A DNA stretch of 64,000 nucleotides, from the NCBI GenBank assembly GCA_001692895.1, contig KV748254.1:714834-778833 (forward strand). The letters run 5' to 3'. The notes beneath the pieces were generated by a model that saw nothing but the letters and a program-made list of their open reading frames with translations, was not told the DNA's origin and searched no databases. Source of the DNA: Cenococcum geophilum 1.58. Its lineage: Eukaryota; Ascomycota; Dothideomycetes; Gloniales; Gloniaceae. Of this stretch, positions 5,833 to 27,373 are shown in pieces. The first letter of the stretch is position 1; each line of letters starts with the position of its first letter. Both the position numbers and the translations under genes were made by a program.

Positions 5833-7251
5833 TTATAGAAACACCTTCTTCGCATCACGAGGATGACTTTCTCCGGGGCAGTACGGACATTTGAATTTTG
5901 CACCTTTGCTCAGCTTGTCGAGAGATTCCTGAGCAATAACATGGCCGCACGGCATCATCATCGGAGGGTTCTGATCCGTGCCTTGCTCCTTGGATACAGG
6001 GCATACGAAGATGGAATGGAAATGATATGAGGGCGGCAACGGTATTTCGACCTAGAGTGCCATAATTAGTAGAGCATTTAGGAAAAATATTAGAGAAGGA
6101 GCTTACAGGCAGCTCGTTCTGGGTAGTCCACTCAGTCCGCTTCTCTTTCATAATATTTTGCAACTTTAGAAGAGTCGGTAACGCGATGGCTCCAGCCGTT
6201 GCAGCAATGTACAGCGGGGAGTCTGCCGAAAGCCCCAGAAGCGAACAAAATTCTCTCGTAAATGAATTTGCCACCTCTTCCCACGCAGAGTCGTTGTAAA
6301 AGAACCGTCGATAGGGCGAGTCAGAGATGTTTTGCCAGAAAGCCATTGCTCCTACTAGTTGCTGGACTTCCCGAGCGTATCTATGCTGGAAAGGCCCAAA
6401 TTCACTCCTTGCGTATGCCCATGCACGCAGAGGACCGTTGGCCGAATCTCCCATGTTCCCCTCGCCATCATAACCCACGAATAGACAAACAAATTGTAAT
6501 CGACACAACTCAAACTCGAGATTGCTACCACGGGTTTCTAATACTGCGCTGCGCTCTCTTGCCCACGCGATAGCCGGTGCAAGGTTCCTTTGTTGTCTTA
6601 ACTCACGCAGAATGTGGTACATTTCCGCGAACTGCTGTTGCAGCTTTTCTGAGTTGAAGGTTCCATTCACCAGGTCCTTCTCCCAAGCCTTCTCTTGTAC
6701 GTATGGGTTTGGGGTTCCAGGCGTGGGCTCGGGATGTGGCGGACGAGCCTCCGCTTCTTGGATAAACGTAGAGGCAACAGAGAATTGGCCCTCGCGAAGG
6801 AGGTGCATGGCTATCGCTCGATTGACCAAGGAAGGGTGAGATGAGAGTGCATCATTCTCAGCAGTTGGTAATGGCTTGTCTTTGAATTTCTGGGAGATTT
6901 GTGATTAGTTCACAGTAACACAGCGGACCGCAGGAGACTTCACACCTTATCGAGTGCTTTGGAATATTTGTTGAGACCCGAGTGAATCTTCTTGAGATCG
7001 TCGTTTACTCTATCAAAGGACTGTTTGACGGGATTCTGGAGCTTTGCGAGGGTCATGGGTGTAGAATTAGGGTCTGCATGGGTCCATAATTAGCTAGGAA
7101 TCATTGCAGAGCTGTATTACGGAGTCTTACCTGCTGAGAGAGCTTTCCTAGCGTTTAAAAGTAGATCAATGGTCTTTTGGGCATCATCGATGCTCTTCTC
7201 CAGATTATCTCTCTTCTGTAGCTGCTCGACCTCATGTTTGAGTGCGTCCAT
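5833..7251 (-). CDS. rmd5: GID/CTLH E3 ubiquitin ligase RING subunit (Rmd5/Gid2, RMND5 homolog)
   Basis: This is the RING-type subunit of the GID/CTLH ubiquitin ligase, which in yeast triggers degradation of gluconeogenic enzymes (family knowledge). Exons are 7251-7131, 7073-6946, 6889-6107 and 6051-5833, giving 416 residues; the introns are 55-57 nt and all phases agree. The N-terminus ([17 protein letters not shown]) is helical and coiled-coil-like. The LisH/CTLH region follows, with [19 protein letters not shown] at about 100-120 and [20 protein letters not shown] further on. The C-terminal RING-like domain reads [18 protein letters not shown] and FKCPYCPGE. As is typical of Rmd5, the first CxxC pair is CxxS, so this RING is degenerate and probably works with a partner RING subunit such as Fyv10/Gid9. 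It is divergent from the STB6-like gene, with about 570 bp of shared upstream DNA. Confidence 0.95.
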
Positions 7252-11488: not shown

Positions 11489-14400
11489 ATGGAGACCGAA
11501 ATACGAAACAACGATGGACTCGATTTTGGTAGTTCGGCCTTCATGAGCTATAATTCTGTACCCTTACCTCTGAGCCAAGCTGCCACCAGATATCCAGACA
11601 TGGATATCCCGTTACCTCAGCCGGAAGATGCGGTAGACCTAGGCAGTCTCCAGTTTATGACAGATGATCAATCATACCCAGACCCTGCTCAGCAGAGTCA
11701 CATCACCGACTATTATTCAGGGCTGATCGAAGATGAAGCCATCTCGACGGATTCCACAACGCGTTCATCCTTGCCTTTGCCTGTCATGCCAACGAGCCAA
11801 AGCAGTTTCCAAACAATGCCGGACACTCAGCAATCATACCTACCACCCTCATTGGATCCTCTTCTACCTATTCATCAGAGCGATTACAGCTTACCCTCTG
11901 ACCATGACTATGTACCGAATGAGAGCTTTGTAAGCCGTTCCAAGCAGATTGGTGCTTAAAGTGTTTGGATGCTCCTGCTGGAATGGCTTAAGACCGCTTT
12001 GTTGAGCAGTCCTGTAACCACCGTTGGTTACTGAAGGCCTTCAGGCATGCGGGTCTATCCAATCACTTCTGGCATTGACTTCGTGCTCTTCCTTGCTTTA
12101 CTAACGATCATAGGACGTAAATGACATGCCAAATTCTGGTACCTGGAGTAGCCAATTTTCTTCTACGATGGTCGTTGATGACCCGATACCGGCGATAACA
12201 CCACCGTATTCCTCTCTCTATGCTAACCCGCATACCGTGGGTACGGCCAAGCGGCCGCTGTCGAACAACAGTCCTGAATTACCCGCGCCAAAGCGCCAGT
12301 TTCTAACCGACACTCATAACCCGGGCCACTATGTCCCAGTAGAGCTTGACTCCGTGACTTCGAACTCTATATGGAATGCGGACAGACGAGTAGAGTCGTC
12401 TCAGAGCAGCCATCAAAGCGAAGGACTTCCAGGAACGCCAATGCTGCTTGAGCCCCGGACAACATGCCTAGTTCGTCAGGAGGAGATTGGGCTTGACGAG
12501 GATGCCGCCGACGTTTGCGCCATTTGGTTCAGTAAAAAATACTCCGTCTTGCCTAGCGATCAAGACATTGAAGCATTGAGCCACTTAACTAAAGCGTCGA
12601 CCACCGCTGTTAAACATTGGTTTGGCCAGATGCTCAAACAAGGATTGGCAGGACACGATTCTGCCTACAAGTCCCAGTCAACTTTGGCATGCTCTCAAAT
12701 GTCTCTCGAAAAGCAGCAAACGTCGAATGAAACCACCGAAGAAATTCCCCAGCATTCTACCGAGGAGAATACCAGCGAACAACGCGCTCGCGGATCACAT
12801 CGATGCACTGAGGGCCAAGCCAGAAGGCGTTCAGGAAAGAAGAGCTGCACTCCGACAATAAACCCAGAAATGCTCCAGAGGGATGAGAGCAAAATTTTCC
12901 AATGCACCAGGAAATGCGGGAAGCGGTACGGGCGAAAGTGTGACTGGAAACGAAATGAAGAGGAGGGGTACCCATCAAAGCATTGGCTCTGCAGCTTGTG
13001 TCAATCTCAGGGGGAACGGGCTAAACCATGCTATCGAAGGTATCACTTCACCCAACATTTTAACAATATCCACCCTACGCTCTCTGCCGCCGACTATGAA
13101 ACCGCTAGCCTTGTCGAGACGGAGACTACTTTTCCCAGGAAATGCGGATTTTGCCCGAAGCGCTTTGTTAACAGGCAAGAACGTATCGATCATATTGCGG
13201 ACCACTTCAAGAAAGGAAAGTGCATGCTAGACTGGAATGACAGTGATGAGTCTGATGACTTTAATGATGATGATGATAGCGATGATAGCCCGGCAGATGA
13301 TAACGGCGAAGGCAGCGATTCTAGGAGTTCAGGTGACAAGCAGAATCCAGAAAACAATCCCGGCTCCGGAGAATGCGATGACAGTGAAGGAAATGACCAA
13401 AGTGGCCCATCTGCAGGCAGCGGTACGAATTCTCGGAATTCTCCAGCCACGACATTATGGAGAACAAGTTTTATACCGAACAACGTAGACAAGGACCAAG
13501 TTTCAGAGACACAAGGAAATGTCGAACCACCTCAAAGCACAAGCAGCCAATCCCCTACTACATACAACAATCAATCGGACCGCGGATGGTGTATCCTCGA
13601 ATCTCCACCCATAACACCCTTATTCTCTGACATCAATAGCCTGCATGACCCAGATAACCGCCCTATTTCACCAGGTTCCCAATGGAATAAAACTCAGTTA
13701 GACGACTCTTCGATGAAGGGTGAGGATTCTGCGACAGATCGTGGTCAGACCGAAAAAGAGTGTGATATCCGGCCTCCCGGACCCATCCTCGTCACGATGG
13801 CTGCCTGGCCAGCTCATAGCTCCATTGCGAGTGATTTGCTGTATGACCATTTGCCAGGAATTGACCCGCGCAAGAAGAGAAGGTATTCCCAGAACGCCCA
13901 GAGCGATCCTGTACCAAGAATCACTTGCAAGATTTCTAGGCCGGGACCCCACATAAGCAACATATTTAGGCTTGAAAGAGAAAGTAATCTCTCCACTGGG
14001 GAGGTTGTTGAGGCTACCTCAAACACACTATCCTCCCCGTATATCGATTCCGGCGACCCATCGTGCCGCCATAACCCCCTCAATTCTGGTTATGCAACAT
14101 ACCCACCAACTTTAGCTTCAGCTTTGGCCCCAGCATCTGCCCAACCAACTTTAGCCTCAGCTTTTACCCCAACCCAAATGATGCTTGACTTCCCGGCGAC
14201 CGAGGCACTTGTTATTCCGAATGCCTCCGGAAAGCTGTTTTTCTGCACTTATGAAGCTGAGAAAGGAGATGAGAAACGCTTTGGAACGAAATCCGACTGG
14301 AAGAAGCATGAAAAGAGCTTCCATGAGACGGGCAAAGAGTATCGATGTCCTGATCCGAGTTGTTCTTGGACCTCCCGTTGCAAGAATGATTACTATCGGC

Positions 14401-16442
14401 ATTCCGAGCGCCATGGAAGCCTAAACGCTTTACCTGCGTTCAAAATGATGAGAAAATTGTCCCAGAAGACCGCGTTTAGATGCGGCTTCAACCACTGTAA
14501 AATGGTATCTTGTTCATGGAACGAACATTGCAATCACGTTGCAGATCATTTGGAAGTAGTACAAGCAAGTAGTGACCAAGAGAGCACGGGAGCAAAGGAT
14601 TTCCTTGCTTGTCTCGCATTTCTTGGGAAGCACCATTATCCCCGTGCATTCACGAACACTGGGGGTCCGGCCCTTGCTGCATCCGGGTTTAACCTACTGC
14701 AAGACTCTATGCAATCCATTTGGTCGCGTTCGCTCCTTACCAGCCTTCGGCTGCTAGGCACAGGTGGTTTCTCATTAGTGGATGAAGTCCTTGTTCGAGG
14801 AACGAACTTGAAAATTTGCCGAAAGACACTTAAGAAACGAGATAGCTCTGCGTTCGACGATCTTATCCAAGAGGTTGAAGTCTTGCAGCAACTTCGGCAT
14901 CCTCACATAATCCGCTTCCTCGGCACGTACTCTCGAGGCGACAGCCTTTCTATCTTCCTATCTCCGGTCGCAGAAGTCACCCTTTCAGTCTGGCTAGACA
15001 AACATGCTGTGGATATTCCGTCGTATGGACGAGATGATATGACTAAAATGTTTGGATGCCTAGCGTCTTCGGTCCGTTATCTCCATGAGAAGCGACCGTT
15101 GATTAAACATATGGACATCAAGCCCCAAAACATTCTAGTCATGGAAGGCAAGTACGAGTTCCCAAATCTGGTTCTGAGTGACTTCGGCATTTCGGAAATA
15201 TCCAAAGAAAGCCTCTCGAATGCAGGTTCAGGTCCTATGACTCGGCGATACTGCGCCCCCGAAGTAGCAAGCTCTGTTTCCAGAGGAATCGAAGCTGATA
15301 TTTACTCCCTTGGCTGTGTCTTTTTAGAGATAGCCCTTGTCATACATCGCCATGCTGGTCGAGGTTACCGCGAATTCCAAAGCGAGTTCCGCGAAGGAAA
15401 GTGTTATTACAACGACCTTCCGCGCGTTTACTGGTGGATTGATTTCCTTCGAGGACAAGACACTAACCCTAACGGTGGATACATACTCCAAACCGTCAAG
15501 AGTATGCTAAATCCGAAGCCCACCGGTCGACCCGATGCAGCTGCTGTCTCGGCCATTTTTACCCCTGGACCTTGTTGTGTGGCCTGGCCTACTGGTACCA
15601 AATCCTTTCCTGGACCTCTGGAGGAAATTAGTTCCCTGGCTGACGTACTTCTTGAAAAAAGCGATATTAACTTGCAAAAAGAGCTCGATTTGCTGGAAGG
15701 TGCAAATCTACACCAACATCATGATTGTCTGCAGAGCGCCATCCACTGGTTCCAGTTATGTTCTACTCAGCATCCGGCGTGCAATGACATGGGCAACCAT
15801 TCGTCACTACTTCCAACACGTCTTCTGGATGTCCAGCAGACTAGACATGATGAATCTCCTGGTCGGCTTATCTTCACAACTGAACTCCCTTCTAACGTCG
15901 ACTATGTCACACTAAGCTACGTTTGGGGAAATGCTGACCAACTCATGCTCACCACCAATAATGTTCACACTATGCTCCAATCACTTCCAAAAGAAAGCTT
16001 GCCTCAAGCCGTCGCCGACGCTATCTCTGTCACAAGACGCCTAGGCGTCCGCTACCTCTGGGTAGATTCGCTGTGCGTGATCCAAGATTCCCAAGAAGAC
16101 CGGCATAGAGAATGCGACGGGATGGCCGAAGTGTACCGCAATGCTGTACTCACCATTGTCAACAACAGCAACGATCCGCTAATTGCCCACTCGGACGATC
16201 ATTCAATGATCGACTGGCTGTCTCCCGGTTTCGCCTGGGACACACGGGCATGGACGCTGCAAGAGCGACTCCTCTCAAAACGTGTCCTTCACTTGACGGA
16301 CAAGCAGATGTATTGGGAGTGCAATGAGCTCAAAGCTTCAGAAACTTTCCCGCACGGTCTTCCGCCGCTTCTCTGGGAATCGGTCCACTGCCACTCGAAG
16401 CAGCCGCTGCTGCAAGAGCGCCATCCTGCTGGGTTGATTTAG
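11489..16442 (+). CDS. Homeodomain-like / C2H2 zinc-finger / protein kinase / HET-domain fusion protein
   Basis: Exons 11489-11929 and 12114-16442 give 1,589 residues. The 184-nt intron has GTAAGC, TACTAAC and CATAG, and both sides are phase 0. Residues 1-270 are low-complexity with a KRP...APKRQ nuclear-signal-like stretch near 192-209. A KN-type homeodomain-like segment lies at about 272-322 (IWFSKKYSVLPSDQDIEAL, VKHWFGQML). Zinc-finger block 1 is at 409-516 (CTRKCGKRYGRKCDWKR, CGFCPKRF...H...H), followed by a very acidic linker at 520-546. Block 2 is at 856-961 (TKSDWKKHEKSFHETGKEYR). The kinase spans about 1022-1296: GTGGFS loop, Lys about 1051, Glu about 1067, HMDIKPQN in place of HRD, DFG at 1170-1172 and CAPE. 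The HET domain spans about 1397-1551 (VTLSYVWG, GVRYLWVDSLCVIQD, TRAWTLQERLLSKRVLHLT), preceded by the usual LPTRLLDV lead. The main exon is one uninterrupted frame, so the fusion is not a splicing guess. A role in allorecognition or regulated cell death is inferred. Confidence 0.9.
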
Positions 16443-21683: not shown

Positions 21684-24497
21684 TCAGTGTCCTACACCGC
21701 CGACTTGCCAATTCAAAAACTCCGGATCATTCGCCTGGGGAAACACGCCTCGGTCCTCCTGCTGTCCCTGCTGCTGCTGTCCCTGCTGCTGCTGCCCCTC
21801 TTGCACTTGCCCTGGCCCTTGCCCTTGTTGTCGCTGCTGCTCTGCCCTCCGCTGCCGCCGTGCGCGGTAGTAGACTAGGAAGGCTAGAGCAGCGGTGAGC
21901 GAGAGGATGATGAGGCTTTCGAGAATGTCGGAGTCGATATCCTCATAGTAGTCGTCGTCGGCGCCGGGCATGTGGCCGTCGTGGCCAGTATGCGTGCCGT
22001 CGTAGTCGTCGACCTCCATGTTTTCCCATGCGGCCGCGTCAGCTTCTAGGAAGGCGTGGATCCATTCGGCGAAAGACCAGTCCTTTTTGGGTGCTGTTGG
22101 AGCAGTGGTTAGTCTGAAGCTTAGTGAAGAGATGTAGAATCGATTGAGATGGGGGATGGGATAATATGAGAAGGTAGAATGAAGAGATACATGGGCGGAG
22201 GTAGAGAACAGTGCGGAAAAGTAAGATGACTTACGTCGATCATCTTGAATAGAATTAACACGCCCATTGGTGACAGTGTTCCACCAACTTCGCAAGCGTA
22301 GCTTGTAGAGTGATAACAGTACGGGAAGGTATGCCTCTCGAGGGTTGGTTTCAAGAGCCTGATCGTAGAATCTTTTGGCAAGATGGAAATCCTGCTCAAT
22401 GCCAATCCCATTTTCGTGCATCCAGCCTAGATTCCACATAGCCTGAGCACTTTGCAGCGTCTCTGCTGCAGCAAGATAACATGCAGCGGCCTTTTCCTGG
22501 TCAGGAGGTGTGCCAAGGCCTTTGAGATAATAGTCGCCCATTTTGACCATAGAGTCGATATTCGATTGTTTAGCGGAGCGGGTCCAGTAAATGAGTGCAG
22601 GTGCGGCATCTCCAACCAGAGATACCTTTTGCTTCACGAATGGAATGAACGAACTCAAAGTAAAGCGTGGCTTGACTTGGTCAAGAAGGTAAGCAACGTT
22701 TGCTTGCCCGATTTCAAAGCCTTGCTCAGCGGCCATCATATAGTCGATGAGGGCAGTCTCAAGATTACCGTTTTCATAAGCCTCGTTTGCTTCTTGAAAT
22801 GACGAAAGAATAATTTCTGCTTTTTCTGCCACAATCTTGTAGTACGCAGCTGCGATACCACAAGATTTGTCGCGGCCAACGCCTTGATTGCTGAGCTCAG
22901 CGAGGTAATAGTATGCTTCAATGTGGCCGTTGCGAGCTGCGAGATCGAAATATCTCATAGCTGTTGGGACATCTCCTTGGTCAAGAAACAGAGCCCCAAG
23001 CCTGACCTGCGCGACAGCAAGATCCTGGTCTGCTGCTGGGGCGAAGTAATCTGCGGCTTTGACAGGATCCTTTGGCACCCCTAGCCCATGAAGATACATC
23101 AAGCCCATAGAATATTGAGATAGGGCATCTCCGTTCGCAATACCGCGTTTGAACCATGTCTGGGCGATTGAGAAACTTTGCTCCATTCCCTCGCCACGAA
23201 GGAACATGCGTCCAAGATAACCCGCTGCTTTCGAAGCGAGCTTTTCTGTGCCAAGCGGTACATCGGATTTGGTTTTCCCGTCCCTAGTCCAATACATTCG
23301 GGCCAGCTCAAGGAACCGCTTTTTTGCGGAAGCGAGGTCTCTTTTGAACGCTCTGGAGCCGTCGTAGTGGAGTTTTGCAAGGTTGTACGTGGCTTTTGGA
23401 TCGCCTTTTCTTGCCATCAAATCGAGATATTCCAGGACATCATCGAAGGACGCGTGGACATCTGAGTTTGGCCCTCCTTGTTTGGCGTTGGGTCCAGCGC
23501 TGCTAACGCTTGCTCCCTCTCCATATACACCCCCCTCATCATCCGCAATTCTATACGAATCCTTGACCATGGAATATCCACCAGGAGGCCCTGACCTCAT
23601 ATATCCGATAGCCTTGTCCGCGACCTTTTTATAATGAAAGACAGCTTCTTCACAATTCCTTGGCGTTGCGATTCCAGTATGATGCCTATACGCGACTGTC
23701 ATTTCTGATCGAATATCGCCTTCTTCCGCAGCCAATGTGTGATATAACATTGCTTTCGCCTGATCTTGTTTCACAGCACCTCCAATACCGGTCGCATACA
23801 TAAACCCAACCATGCTCTGGGCGGAGCTGTTCCCATTCAATGTAGCGAGCTCGTGGTATCTTCGGAAGGCCTCAGAATAGTTTCGTGGATGAGTGAAGTT
23901 ACCGTAAAAGTTCATTTCAGCGAGCACGAATATCGCGTCCGGGTTCTTCAGAGCAGCCGCATCTTCCAGCAGCTTAACAGCTTGAGACAGGGGGGGGCTG
24001 AGTTTCTTCGACTGTGGTTTCGAAGTGACAAGATTCTGTTGCGGAGGACCGTTCATGAAAAGGAGGAAGAAGAGTTCTTTGACATAATATGCAGTAGTCC
24101 CAAATACTCCCGTGGGCTTGCTGAATCGAGAAAGATGGTATGTTGAAGGTCGAATCTTGCGAAGGATGGCTGTGGCTTCTTGAACAGCGGAGGCACCTAT
24201 GAAGAATATAAATATTTTATCAATATAAACTGTGATAATGTGGATAATTTGCCCACCGTCATTGCGCGGTTTGCTTCCCCAGCCATCGTCTAATATCGAG
24301 TGATGTCCTAGAGGCTTCTGTGTTCCGTCCCCTCTCACTGAACGCTCATATGCTTGATTCTGGGCAGATGTCACAGCGACGAAGATATATAAAACCACTG
24401 TTATGTGTCGGCGCGTTAGTATCGCCTCTCTTGATCGAAATGGGGAAGTAGACATACCGAAAAAGAGCGGCACGAGCCGCAGGGATGATTGCTTCAT
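21684..24497 (-). CDS. hrd3: Hrd3/SEL1L homolog, Sel1-repeat ERAD receptor
   Basis: This is an ER-membrane protein that recruits luminal misfolded substrates to the Hrd1 ubiquitin ligase (family knowledge). Exons are 24497-24458, 24397-24257, 24196-22235 and 22093-21684, giving 850 residues. The introns are 60, 60 and 141 nt, all phase 1; the first has a TACTAAC branch. Removing intron 1 creates a clean signal peptide (MKQSSLRLVPLFF joined to VVLYIFVAVTSA). The middle of the protein is a chain of Sel1-like repeats: AQSMVGFMYATGIGGAVKQD, SQYSMGLMYLHGLGVPKDPV, AYYYLAELSNQGVG and AMWNLGWMHENGIG. One transmembrane helix near the C-terminus (ILESLIILSLTAALAFLVYY) is followed by RRQRR and a Gln-rich cytosolic tail with QGQQQQ repeats. 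Read straight through, the three introns stay in frame, so an unspliced prediction would wrongly give 937 residues. Confidence 0.93.
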   Translation of the reverse strand: MKQSSLRLVPLFFGMSTSPFRSREAILTRRHITVVLYIFVAVTSAQNQAYERSVRGDGTQKPLGHHSILDDGWGSKPRNDGGQIIHIITVYIDKIFIFFIGASAVQEATAILRKIRPSTYHLSRFSKPTGVFGTTAYYVKELFFLLFMNGPPQQNLVTSKPQSKKLSPPLSQAVKLLEDAAALKNPDAIFVLAEMNFYGNFTHPRNYSEAFRRYHELATLNGNSSAQSMVGFMYATGIGGAVKQDQAKAMLYHTLAAEEGDIRSEMTVAYRHHTGIATPRNCEEAVFHYKKVADKAIGYMRSGPPGGYSMVKDSYRIADDEGGVYGEGASVSSAGPNAKQGGPNSDVHASFDDVLEYLDLMARKGDPKATYNLAKLHYDGSRAFKRDLASAKKRFLELARMYWTRDGKTKSDVPLGTEKLASKAAGYLGRMFLRGEGMEQSFSIAQTWFKRGIANGDALSQYSMGLMYLHGLGVPKDPVKAADYFAPAADQDLAVAQVRLGALFLDQGDVPTAMRYFDLAARNGHIEAYYYLAELSNQGVGRDKSCGIAAAYYKIVAEKAEIILSSFQEANEAYENGNLETALIDYMMAAEQGFEIGQANVAYLLDQVKPRFTLSSFIPFVKQKVSLVGDAAPALIYWTRSAKQSNIDSMVKMGDYYLKGLGTPPDQEKAAACYLAAAETLQSAQAMWNLGWMHENGIGIEQDFHLAKRFYDQALETNPREAYLPVLLSLYKLRLRSWWNTVTNGRVNSIQDDRRKSSYFSALFSTSAHVSLHSTFSYYPIPHLNRFYISSLSFRLTTAPTAPKKDWSFAEWIHAFLEADAAAWENMEVDDYDGTHTGHDGHMPGADDDYYEDIDSDILESLIILSLTAALAFLVYYRARRQRRAEQQRQQGQGPGQVQEGQQQQGQQQQGQQEDRGVFPQANDPEFLNWQVGGVGH

Positions 24498-25258
24498 AAT
24501 GGCTTAAGCTCGACTATCCAGTCAGTCGAAGAAGTGGGCTTCATTTCGACATCTGCTATGAGGTTGACATGTACGCGATTACTCAGGATAGAAAGATGTA
24601 GCGATGCGAATATATCGCGTGGAAGATGACACCTTTTGTCCAGCTCGGCAAACATGGAGCTCCACCAAAGAGGCACGCCAAGGATAAGAGGCGATTAAAC
24701 TGCACATAAACTTACCCATAAACAGAACAAGAACTCGTGGTTATCGTCTCTAACTAATTCCCTTCGATACTAAGCTGTCACATGCTAAGGTCAAACGATT
24801 CTCAATTTACCTCTTCAGCCAGCGTTTTACTCGCAAAGAGGTATCGGACTGCTTCAGCGTGCCTGTTCTTTATTACGCATCCGCCACATCCCTGCGTCAT
24901 CTCTTTCTACATTCGAACACGTCCATATAATTTCTTAGCCCCAGTTAAACCCTTCTCAATCTTTTCAGGCTAGCATACCTGAGACTGTGGCAGAGACAGT
25001 GAAGGAAGCCAGTTTGATCTATCCAAAGATTGAAATTTGAGGTGCTGAAACCGCCCTAGCCTCAAAAGATTCGGACCAGGTTTGGTCCGTGTACAATCTC
25101 CGATTTCTAAGCATATCAACAACGAACTACTTCGCAGCTAAGCATCATGATACTTAGGAAATACTATCTTCCTCCGCTCCACTCTCAAAGAGCCAATTCA
25201 TTATTATACACCAGATAATACCTAAGCAGTGCTCGGAAACCATTTTACCACCTGGCTC
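24498..25258. promoter_or_regulatory. Shared divergent upstream region of hrd3 and the MFS transporter gene
   Basis: These 761 bp lie between two outward-facing start codons. No specific site could be assigned, including an unfolded-protein-response element for hrd3. Confidence 0.45.
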
Positions 25259-27373
25259 ATGGCGGAGCCTAGCAGTACCAACTCGGAGCGCTCTCCTCTC
25301 CTGCCGCAATTACCCACTGCTAGTATATCCTCTGCATCAAAGCCTTCTGGAGCTCTAGCGAATCCAGAGGTAACGCAGCAGAATGATACAGCACCGACGA
25401 TTTCAGCCTTGAGAGGCACCTTGGTTGTGGTATCGATAGGGGTACTCATTTTCCTTCAAGGTAGGTCTCAGGGCGAAATAATCTTCATTTCGCTACTACT
25501 GAATATTTCTACTTTTGCCAAAGAGGCGCCGTTTTCCAAAAAATAGATTACATTCAGACCTTTTATATTTGGTCTAATCTGAATGGATGTCGCTTACGCT
25601 TTGGTAGCTACCAATATGTCAATCCTGACAACGACACAATCAGCAATTGCGGCAGACTTGGATGCATTTGAGGAAGCAAGCTGGCTTACTTCTTCCTATT
25701 TGATTGCCATATCTAGCATCGCACCTTTATCAGGCCGATTATGCCAGCTCTTCTCGCCCCGTTTATGCATGTTCGTGTCTACGGTAATAGTTTGTCTCGG
25801 ATGTATAATTACATCTATATCACCCTCATTGGCAGTGTTTTTACTTGGCCGTGCTGTGACTGGCACTGGCGCCGCTGGTATTATGATAGTAGCCACAATT
25901 ATCGCTGTTCAACTGGCCGGTGCCAAACGGAGAGGCTTGTATATTGGACTCATCAACTCCAGCTTGACGGTTGGTGTTTCATTAGGTGCTGTTATTGCTG
26001 GAGCCTTAGAGCCTAAGTTTGGTTGGGTATGTCGCTATTATCTTCATCTCCTAGAATTTGTGGACGAGCACAAAATATTTCGTCTCATTTTGCTTCCCTG
26101 TGAAATCCGTTTAACCAAGAGGTAGATGATAAGCTAATCATTGTAATAGAAAATCCTTTTCGGCATCCAAGCTCCAATAAGCATGATAGCAGGCCTTTGT
26201 GTATTGTTCGGTATCCCAAAGAAATACCTTACAAGCAATAGCGAGTTTGCTGGCTTCTCGCTGCGGCAGAAGCTCGCCAGTATCGACTATTTCGGAGCCG
26301 TGAGCCTTGTAAGTGCACTTTCAAGCCAGAAATTCTTCAATCTGTGCACTACCTGCCTGAACCAATCTATATATCGACCCGCCTAAAATCATGCCATTTC
26401 GATACCTCATTAAATGTCAATCTAACGCACCCGGCAGACCTCGACAATACTCCTCTTCCTACTCGGCCTTTCAGGTAGACACATAATGCCCACCCCTATC
26501 ATTCTATCATTCCTCCTCTTCCCCCTCTTCATCATCAACGAAACACGCACAGCCAAATACCCCATCATTCCCGTCACCATCCTGCGCTCCCGCGGGACCC
26601 TCCTAACCTGCCTCGCCACCGTCGGCTTCATGATGGCCCGCTGGTCCGTCCTCTTCTACACGCCGGTGTACGCACTCGCCGTGCGCGCCTGGCCTCCCGC
26701 AGTCGCAGGCAGCATCCTCATCCCCACGAACCTCGGCTTCGGGCTCGGCGGCATCCTGGCTGGCGCAATCCACATCCGGCGCGCAGGCAGCTTCTACGCG
26801 CCCAGCCTGGCATCCATGGCGCTGCTACCCGTCACGCTGCTCGTGCTGGCGCTGACGAGCCTGCCCACGACGCCCGCGGCGGGCTACGTGGCGACAGTGT
26901 TCTTCAACGGCCTGCTGACGGGCGCCGCGCTGAACTATACGCTCGTGCATATGCTGCATTTGACGCCGGGCGCGGCGCATCCGATCGCGCTTTCGCTGCT
27001 CGCGACGTTCCGTGGTTTTTCGGGCAGCTTTGGCAGCGCGATTGGGGGCGGGTTGTTCATGCGGATCTTGAGTAGGGAGCTGGAGGACGGGTTTGCGGAG
27101 GCGGGGCTGAAACATCGGGAGGATTTGGTGAGGAGATTGATGGGGAGTCCGGCGCTTGTGAGTGGATTAGAAGGCAAGGAGAGGGAGGTGGCAGTTGGTG
27201 CGTATGTGGCGGGTATTAGAGCACTGTTTTTAGCAGCTATGGGGCTATCGGTGGNCATGGCGTTTATTCAAGCCGGGACTGGATGGAAGGGGGTGACCGA
27301 GGAAGGAGAGATGGGAGAGAGGGAGGTAGAAGAGGAGGTGGAAGGGGAGGAGAGCTTGATTGTAGGGTCGTAG
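25259..27373 (+). CDS. Major facilitator superfamily transporter (DHA2/Vba-like, 14-TMS type)
   Basis: Exons 25259-25460, 25608-26026, 26150-26308 and 26438-27373 give 571 residues, with all phases agreeing. The N-terminal tail SERSPLLPQLP looks like an acidic-dileucine-type vacuolar sorting signal. Membrane segments begin at TLVVVSIGVLIFLQ. Family signatures are ATNMSILTTTQSAIAADL, ASWLTSSYLIAISSIAPLSG, FLLGRAVTGTGAAGIMIV, a conserved RRGLYIGLINSSLTVGVSLG block, and PIIPVTILRSRGTLLT with FYTPVYALAVR. Fungal relatives move basic amino acids into the vacuole or export drugs; the substrate here is not determined. The acceptor for intron 1 is the AG at 25606-25607; a frame starting at 25583 is blocked upstream by a stop. 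Exon 4 becomes strongly GC-rich. One N lies at 27255. A MITE starts a few bases after the stop. Confidence 0.88.

Follow-up and report, generated by a model that had tools for sequence, protein, structure and literature searches.

Does a single gene of Cenococcum geophilum encode one protein running from a homeodomain-like segment through C2H2 zinc fingers and a protein kinase into a HET domain, and what might such a protein do? The question is raised by a locus in the window, as we call the whole stretch of 64,000 nucleotides analysed here, for which an earlier note had suggested a fusion of no described kind that could act like an integrated-decoy immune receptor. The available text of PMC5023957 describes a C. 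geophilum genome of 178 Mb in which the HET, NACHT and WD40 families have expanded; the assembly analysed here (177.19 Mb) has many HET loci. In the accessible parts of PMC10890737 and PMC10197012, HET genes are presented as a fast-turning family with an unknown output mechanism.

Gene model and domain organization

The features of the locus are collected in Table 1. The encoded product comprises 1589 amino acids, in the order homeodomain fold, C2H2 block (block A), variable linker enclosing another C2H2 block (block B), kinase and HET domain; one other in-frame choice, an alternative donor at 11912, would yield 1583 amino acids. The single long exon that the earlier note had described, running from the homeodomain-like segment to the HET domain without a stop, is confirmed: exon 2 is open for 1442 codons, against 243 codons at most in 500 shuffled versions of positions 11489–16442.

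Table 1. Coordinates of the features of the locus, given as positions in the window.
Feature	Position	Strand	Evidence
Exon 1 (residues 1–147)	11489..11929	+	ATG and donor site; P0122 continues over the intron
Intron, GTAAGC ... TACTAAC ... ATAG, 184 bases	11930..12113	+	absent from P0122
Exon 2 including stop codon (residues 148–1589)	12114..16442	+	open frame
KR-x12-KR (residues 193–208), resembling a bipartite nuclear localisation signal	12249..12296	+	conserved KR pairs
Homeodomain-like segment (residues 271–338), C-terminal end WFGQMLKQG	12483..12686	+	predicted fold
C2H2 block A (residues 399–513); ligands present in fingers 2 and 3, no His in finger 1	12867..13211	+	ligand counts
Variable linker (residues 514–1023), start acidic	13212..14741	+	linker lengths among relatives
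Block B, probably a captured C2H2 fragment	14174..14544	+	87% DNA identity to contig C14:1110967-1111337 (-)
Protein kinase (residues 1024–1300), HMD replacing HRD	14742..15572	+	Pfam 8.4e-37, catalytic residues, model
Kinase-HET joint, invariant CC (residues 1301–1302)	15573..15767	+	C and C in 159/159
HET (TIR-like) domain (residues 1366–1560)	15768..16352	+	Pfam HET 1.9e-26; E1480
C-terminal tail (residues 1561–1589)	16353..16439	+	segment 1546–1589 covered in 119/120 listed relatives

The database protein P0122 is identical to residues 1–412, with no interruption at the intron; its last six residues differ, and we take them to be adapter-like. Its source label, lgn, presumably stands for the Logan assemblies. 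As a protein record, it reads as spliced RNA would. P0003 and P0004 continue from an exon-1-like start through to the HET domain in a single frame.

The kinase and HET parts had been described as joined without a break, and none is found between them. The sole break seen lies in the linker, N-terminal of the kinase: P0121 corresponds to the N-terminal half and P0137 to the kinase-HET half, in two frames (longest contig of the source 57984 for both), which suggests one locus in two frames. Several other relatives appear, among the matches listed, as one half only. Since one relative has its halves in two frames, the intact single protein may be dispensable.

A conserved N-terminal half with altered residues

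The homeodomain-like segment scores under the Pfam cut-off (14.8 bits against 24, best E 0.026), but its predicted structure presents the three-helix homeodomain fold, which supports this identity for residues 271–338. The canonical homeodomain residue Asn 51 of WFxN is gone in 103 of the 104 family proteins bearing the motif, Asn following WFG or WFS only in P0033. The homeodomain-like segment of the earlier note thus stands by its predicted fold and not by its sequence score or its asparagine.

The C2H2 parts likewise fall under the Pfam cut-off (best E 0.029). At the site of the finger-1 histidine, following DWKR, the family proteins carry Asn (100), Lys (8), Ser (3) or Gln (1), and His in 0 of 112; this finger is modelled at a pLDDT below 50. 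The ligands of finger 3 are kept, each cysteine in 128/129 proteins and the histidines in 128/128 and 126/127. Two zinc-finger blocks can be upheld in part: within block A, the ligands are retained in fingers 2 and 3 whereas finger 1 lacks its histidine, and block B has a counterpart at another locus and is absent from P0001–P0003. Block A is nevertheless the most conserved part measured, with a median identity of 0.73 in the 106 of 120 listed relatives that cover it, as compared with 0.51 for the kinase and likewise for the HET domain.

An unfused relative, P0133 from Rhizodiscina, consists of the homeodomain-finger half, gives no Pfam match to either a kinase or a HET domain, and retains both the finger-1 histidine and the Asn at WFGN (it brings the motif-bearing proteins to 105). 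Judged from these residues, the N-terminal half of the window family is conserved yet altered, with its canonical DNA contacts lost. Both KR pairs of the motif upstream are conserved at ≥90% (alignment A2, 53 sequences) and present in the window protein, where they may have a nuclear role.

The kinase and the HET domain

The kinase described in the earlier note, with its glycine loop, HMDIKPQN, DFG and APE, is borne out, with a Pkinase match of 2.9e-35 on exon 2 and with catalytic residues that are invariant in the family where covered. Among the kinase-HET proteins including that of the window, and where the position is covered, the catalytic Lys and Glu are found in 156/156, HxD, DFG, APE and the activation-loop Thr in 159/159, and the three glycines of the loop in 154/154, 155/155 and 154/155. 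We consider the kinase as intact-looking and of the Ser/Thr type. The HRD arginine is replaced, the four commonest residues in the 159 proteins being Met (130), Leu (21), Gly (4) and Thr (3); HMD also occurs in related kinases without HET and is therefore no special sign of immunity. DAPK was considered as the nearest solved kinase and set aside, the similarity being generic.

The HET match reaches 93.6 bits against a cut-off of 22.5 (1.4e-23 for exon 2 alone) but spans positions 1–87 of the 146 of the profile only; the RAWTLQER block further downstream lies outside the matched part and was recognized by eye. The window copy lacks four residues after LTIV that are present in P0001, P0002, P0003 and P0137. 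A HET domain with all its conserved blocks, as first described, is upheld for the Pfam score and the signature S, W, D, C, QD and E residues, and by eye for the later block. E1480 is Glu in 153/158 family proteins and 27/27 HET-only proteins, and W1463 is kept in 156/158. According to the accessible part of PMC9815663, HET and TIR domains share a functionally relevant glutamate, to which E1480 would correspond.

In a model of residues 1015–1589 (mean pLDDT 79.4), the structural elements of the kinase are present, as are those of the HET domain. Structural comparison of this model returned kinases, which filled the list; by sequence, the HET domain gave one match in the PDB (E 0.31).

A variable linker with a probably captured fragment

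The shortest of 119 linkers has 157 residues and the longest 795 (median 267). Block B of the window linker matches contig C14 over 371 bases at 87% DNA identity, and it is therefore probably captured from another locus of the same genome. The C14 copy lies within a separate frame of 452 residues, to which residues 806–962 match at 69% on the protein level; a longer codon alignment has 82% identity. The dN/dS ratio between the two copies is 0.74 (bootstrap 0.45–1.31, 154 codons), a value compatible with relaxed constraint or with drift. Block B is missing from the close relatives P0001–P0003, whose linkers carry, at another place, about 200 residues absent from the window copy; C14 would be the donor, and block B would have been gained in the window rather than lost by these relatives. 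In P0137 the corresponding piece has diverged, with 57/89 residues identical as against 273/278 in the kinase. By eye, this piece runs further into the C14 sequence. A second, rearranged copy of the gene had been considered as the source of block B and was rejected, no such copy having been found among the own-genome candidates scored and the match being to C14 instead.

Other linkers hold other pieces. That of P0009 has ankyrin repeats, that of P0026 a piece of NPHP3_N, and that of P0051 motifs of the Zn2Cys6 and P-loop kinds (the P-loop matches being weak). P0005 carries an Hsp70-like motif, and P0001–P0003 share a short kinase-like stretch. C2H2-like motifs occur in 10 of the 119 linkers, 0.92 being expected from shuffling; seven remain after exclusion of P0074 and P0075, in which the boundaries cut block A, and of the doubtful P0082, and nine further rows of the scan carried cysteines only. 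Common ancestry of all extra linker fingers was rejected: P0005, P0008, P0017 and P0031 group together, but their profile misses block B of the window. One member of alignment A4 has a Patatin match (E 0.00017), and the linker motif scan found no Patatin in the linkers. Extra Pfam families are few in 141 family proteins, and most linkers have no recognisable domain.

Distribution of the family

Residues 260–1589 match 147 proteins at E ≤0.001, in searches that require shared five-residue words and a length window. Among the best 120 of these 147, the same order of fingers, kinase and HET domain is found in 97, and in 87 of them the homeodomain part is present as well. Non-NCBI sources account for 39 of the 97, a split that is based on a hand-entered list of NCBI sources. 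The search of other proteomes that the earlier note had proposed thus recovers the domain order, and the uniqueness that it had suggested gives way to a family; a unique fusion is rejected. With kinase and HET as the query, 8000 candidates were scored and 333 matched; among the best 120 of the 333, all proteins with both domains score at least 253 bits, P0173 at 267 bits has the kinase only, and from 154 bits down either the kinase or the HET domain is found, never both.

A tree of the kinase-HET part was built from 74 rows, of which 60 carry a species name; species generally understood as related broadly cluster in it. Five species appear twice and four of the pairs are close; the two rows of Boeremia exigua stand apart (end branches 0.19 and 0.10), and this species may carry a second copy. 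No second copy was found in the C. geophilum genome among the 32 of 410 candidates that were scored. Named members include Zopfia, Mytilinidion, Lophium and Delitschia, from the Dothideomycetes including the Mytilinidiales, and many of the others presumably belong to the Pleosporales; Cenococcum itself is placed in the Gloniales. That many related fungi have the same combination points to a signalling protein maintained over a long time, and less to an isolated fusion event or to an incompatibility gene under rapid change.

Proposed function and alternative explanations

The reading that we prefer, tentatively and at somewhat less than an even chance, is that of a conserved, probably nuclear kinase-HET signalling protein with an anchor derived from a transcription factor. 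The N-terminal half would derive from a homeodomain and C2H2 transcription factor that has lost its canonical DNA contacts and kept the fold, two fingers and the nuclear-signal-like motif, and through it the protein would be brought into the nucleus and onto a partner protein or a DNA site. This placement would control the kinase, the kinase would release the HET domain, and the output would be TIR-like signalling or local cell death. We infer the nuclear location, this order of events and killing or NAD consumption by the HET domain; alternatively, the HET domain may be an interaction module only. If the model is true, a TIR-type output is tied to a transcription-factor scaffold outside plants. 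A HET domain kept with its own kinase across species offers a fixed handle on whether HET domains are enzymatic and whether they are controlled by phosphorylation, and block B would illustrate how a variable linker acquires fragments in nature.

Conservation between species, and the lack of a second copy among the own-genome candidates scored, would also suit a regulator of growth, development or stress that has been domesticated; its HET domain would serve only in dimerisation or as an NAD-linked module, with no cell death. The accessible parts of PMC10197012 and PMC10890737 add that allorecognition involves no more than a minor share of HET genes. As the HET signature residues including the glutamate are retained, and as overexpression of a HET domain is given as sufficient for death in the available text of PMC12881547, we regard this regulator as a real possibility but a doubtful one. 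In the integrated-decoy reading, the linker or the degenerate transcription-factor half would be a bait bound by an invader product and the HET domain the death output. Kinase and HET residues kept in frame with a transcription-factor half that lacks its canonical DNA contacts would fit a decoy, as would the foreign linker pieces (C2H2 in the window and those of P0009, P0026, P0051 and P0005), and zinc fingers and kinases are common extras of Sordariales NLRs in the accessible text of PMC12258605. In the decoy model as set out in the available part of PMC4246468, however, relatives should differ by exchange of the integrated domain; here the linker content alone varies, and block A stays the same. 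There is no constant nucleotide-binding domain, recognisable domains are absent from most linkers, and a disordered linker may merely tolerate insertions, the constraint on block B appearing relaxed. We therefore consider such a bait sensor unlikely, and are similarly sceptical of its nuclear version, an immune sensor without a nucleotide-binding domain in which a fixed anchor and a fixed kinase-HET output flank an exchangeable slot repeatedly collecting NACHT, ankyrin, zinc-finger and Zn2Cys6 pieces as baits. A fast-evolving receptor does not agree with block A being the most conserved part, nor with the second copy missing among the candidates scored.

A classical heterokaryon-incompatibility gene with incompatible alleles would account for the HET domain and for linkers and block B that differ strongly between close relatives (P0137, above); kinase and HET are nearly identical in those same relatives and the family is common to many species, which makes this very improbable. 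That an assembly or gene-model error has joined neighbouring genes could be argued from the P0121/P0137 halves and from the relatives appearing as one half among the matches listed; set against one open exon and the finger-kinase-HET order recurring in the best matches, 39 times outside NCBI, it hardly deserves consideration.

Comparison with known systems

Searches of the open-access literature, partly aimed elsewhere and including member locus tags and kinase-HET phrases, found no description of a homeodomain/C2H2-kinase-HET architecture in the texts available. According to the accessible part of PMC12258605, zinc fingers and kinases belong to the most frequent additional domains of NLRs in Sordariales; a sensor role is proposed for the zinc fingers, and the kinases are seen as possible decoys. 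The general sensor/decoy idea is thus already known; within the literature searched, it is the architecture, together with its conservation, that appears new.

In the finger-kinase proteins on contigs C77 and C42 of the same genome, a C2H2 block precedes the kinase as in the window protein; neither gives a HET match, and the homeodomain match of C77 is weak and under the cut-off (E 0.11). A common origin is not supported, the C77 and C42 kinases not grouping with the family in a kinase tree with weak deep branches.

With the HET-domain proteins (PF06985; HET-E, HET-D, HET-R, TOL and PIN-C) the window protein shares the HET signature residues, but its HET domain is C-terminal, after a kinase, and the Pfam scan of exon 2 finds no NACHT or WD40. 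The window family is common to many species, whereas HET is described in the available text of PMC10890737 as the domain with the greatest copy-number variation in Sordariales. Fungal NLRs with zinc-finger or PKinase extras (PMC12258605, accessible part) join the same kinds of domain to cell-death-type domains. Unlike them, the window family has neither NACHT/NB-ARC nor repeats as constant parts (Pfam, exon 2 and 141 relatives): ankyrin is seen in P0009 only, beside the NPHP3_N piece of P0026 and the weak P-loop matches of P0051. Finally, although it has no NB or LRR and its domain order differs, the window protein is analogous in parts to systems that combine a TIR-type with a transcription-factor domain, together with a kinase in WRKY19.

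Genomic surroundings of the kinase-HET gene

Base composition changes abruptly near 30 kb of the window, where G+C falls from about 48% to about 31%, and the AT-rich part (30000–64000) contains no open frame of 200 codons. Two dinucleotide indices that serve as measures of repeat-induced point mutation, TpA/ApT and (CpA+TpG)/(ApC+GpT), take values of 1.68 and 0.38 there, a composition that resembles the state after this process. The frames adjoining the kinase-HET gene are ordinary genes, in which a CTLH domain, a set of Sel1 repeats and a low-scoring match to MFS were detected.

Frames adjoining the main gene and counterpart of its linker fingers (block B)
Feature	Location	Strand	Basis
Adjoining frame	window 5855–6904
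Adjoining frame	window 21684–24503
Adjoining frame	window 26426–27373
C2H2 frame, 452 residues, matching block B	L012:715–2073	−	sequence match

The sequence of the block B counterpart, which lies on another contig, contains one N, and a Pfam search of this frame gave no match.

Related genes and domain partners

Across the whole genome assembly 150 HET matches were scored out of 439 candidates, a figure that is a lower bound. The same genome also carries C2H2-kinase genes without HET at L035 (contig C42), where kinase and fingers are split over two adjacent frames, and at L038 (contig C77), where a weak homeodomain match is also present. Among database proteins, P0136, a relative of the family's conserved fingers (block A), continues into a weak patatin start (E 0.0015, below the cut-off) where kinase and HET would stand, and the fungal protein P0238 fuses a PNP_UDP domain to a related kinase.
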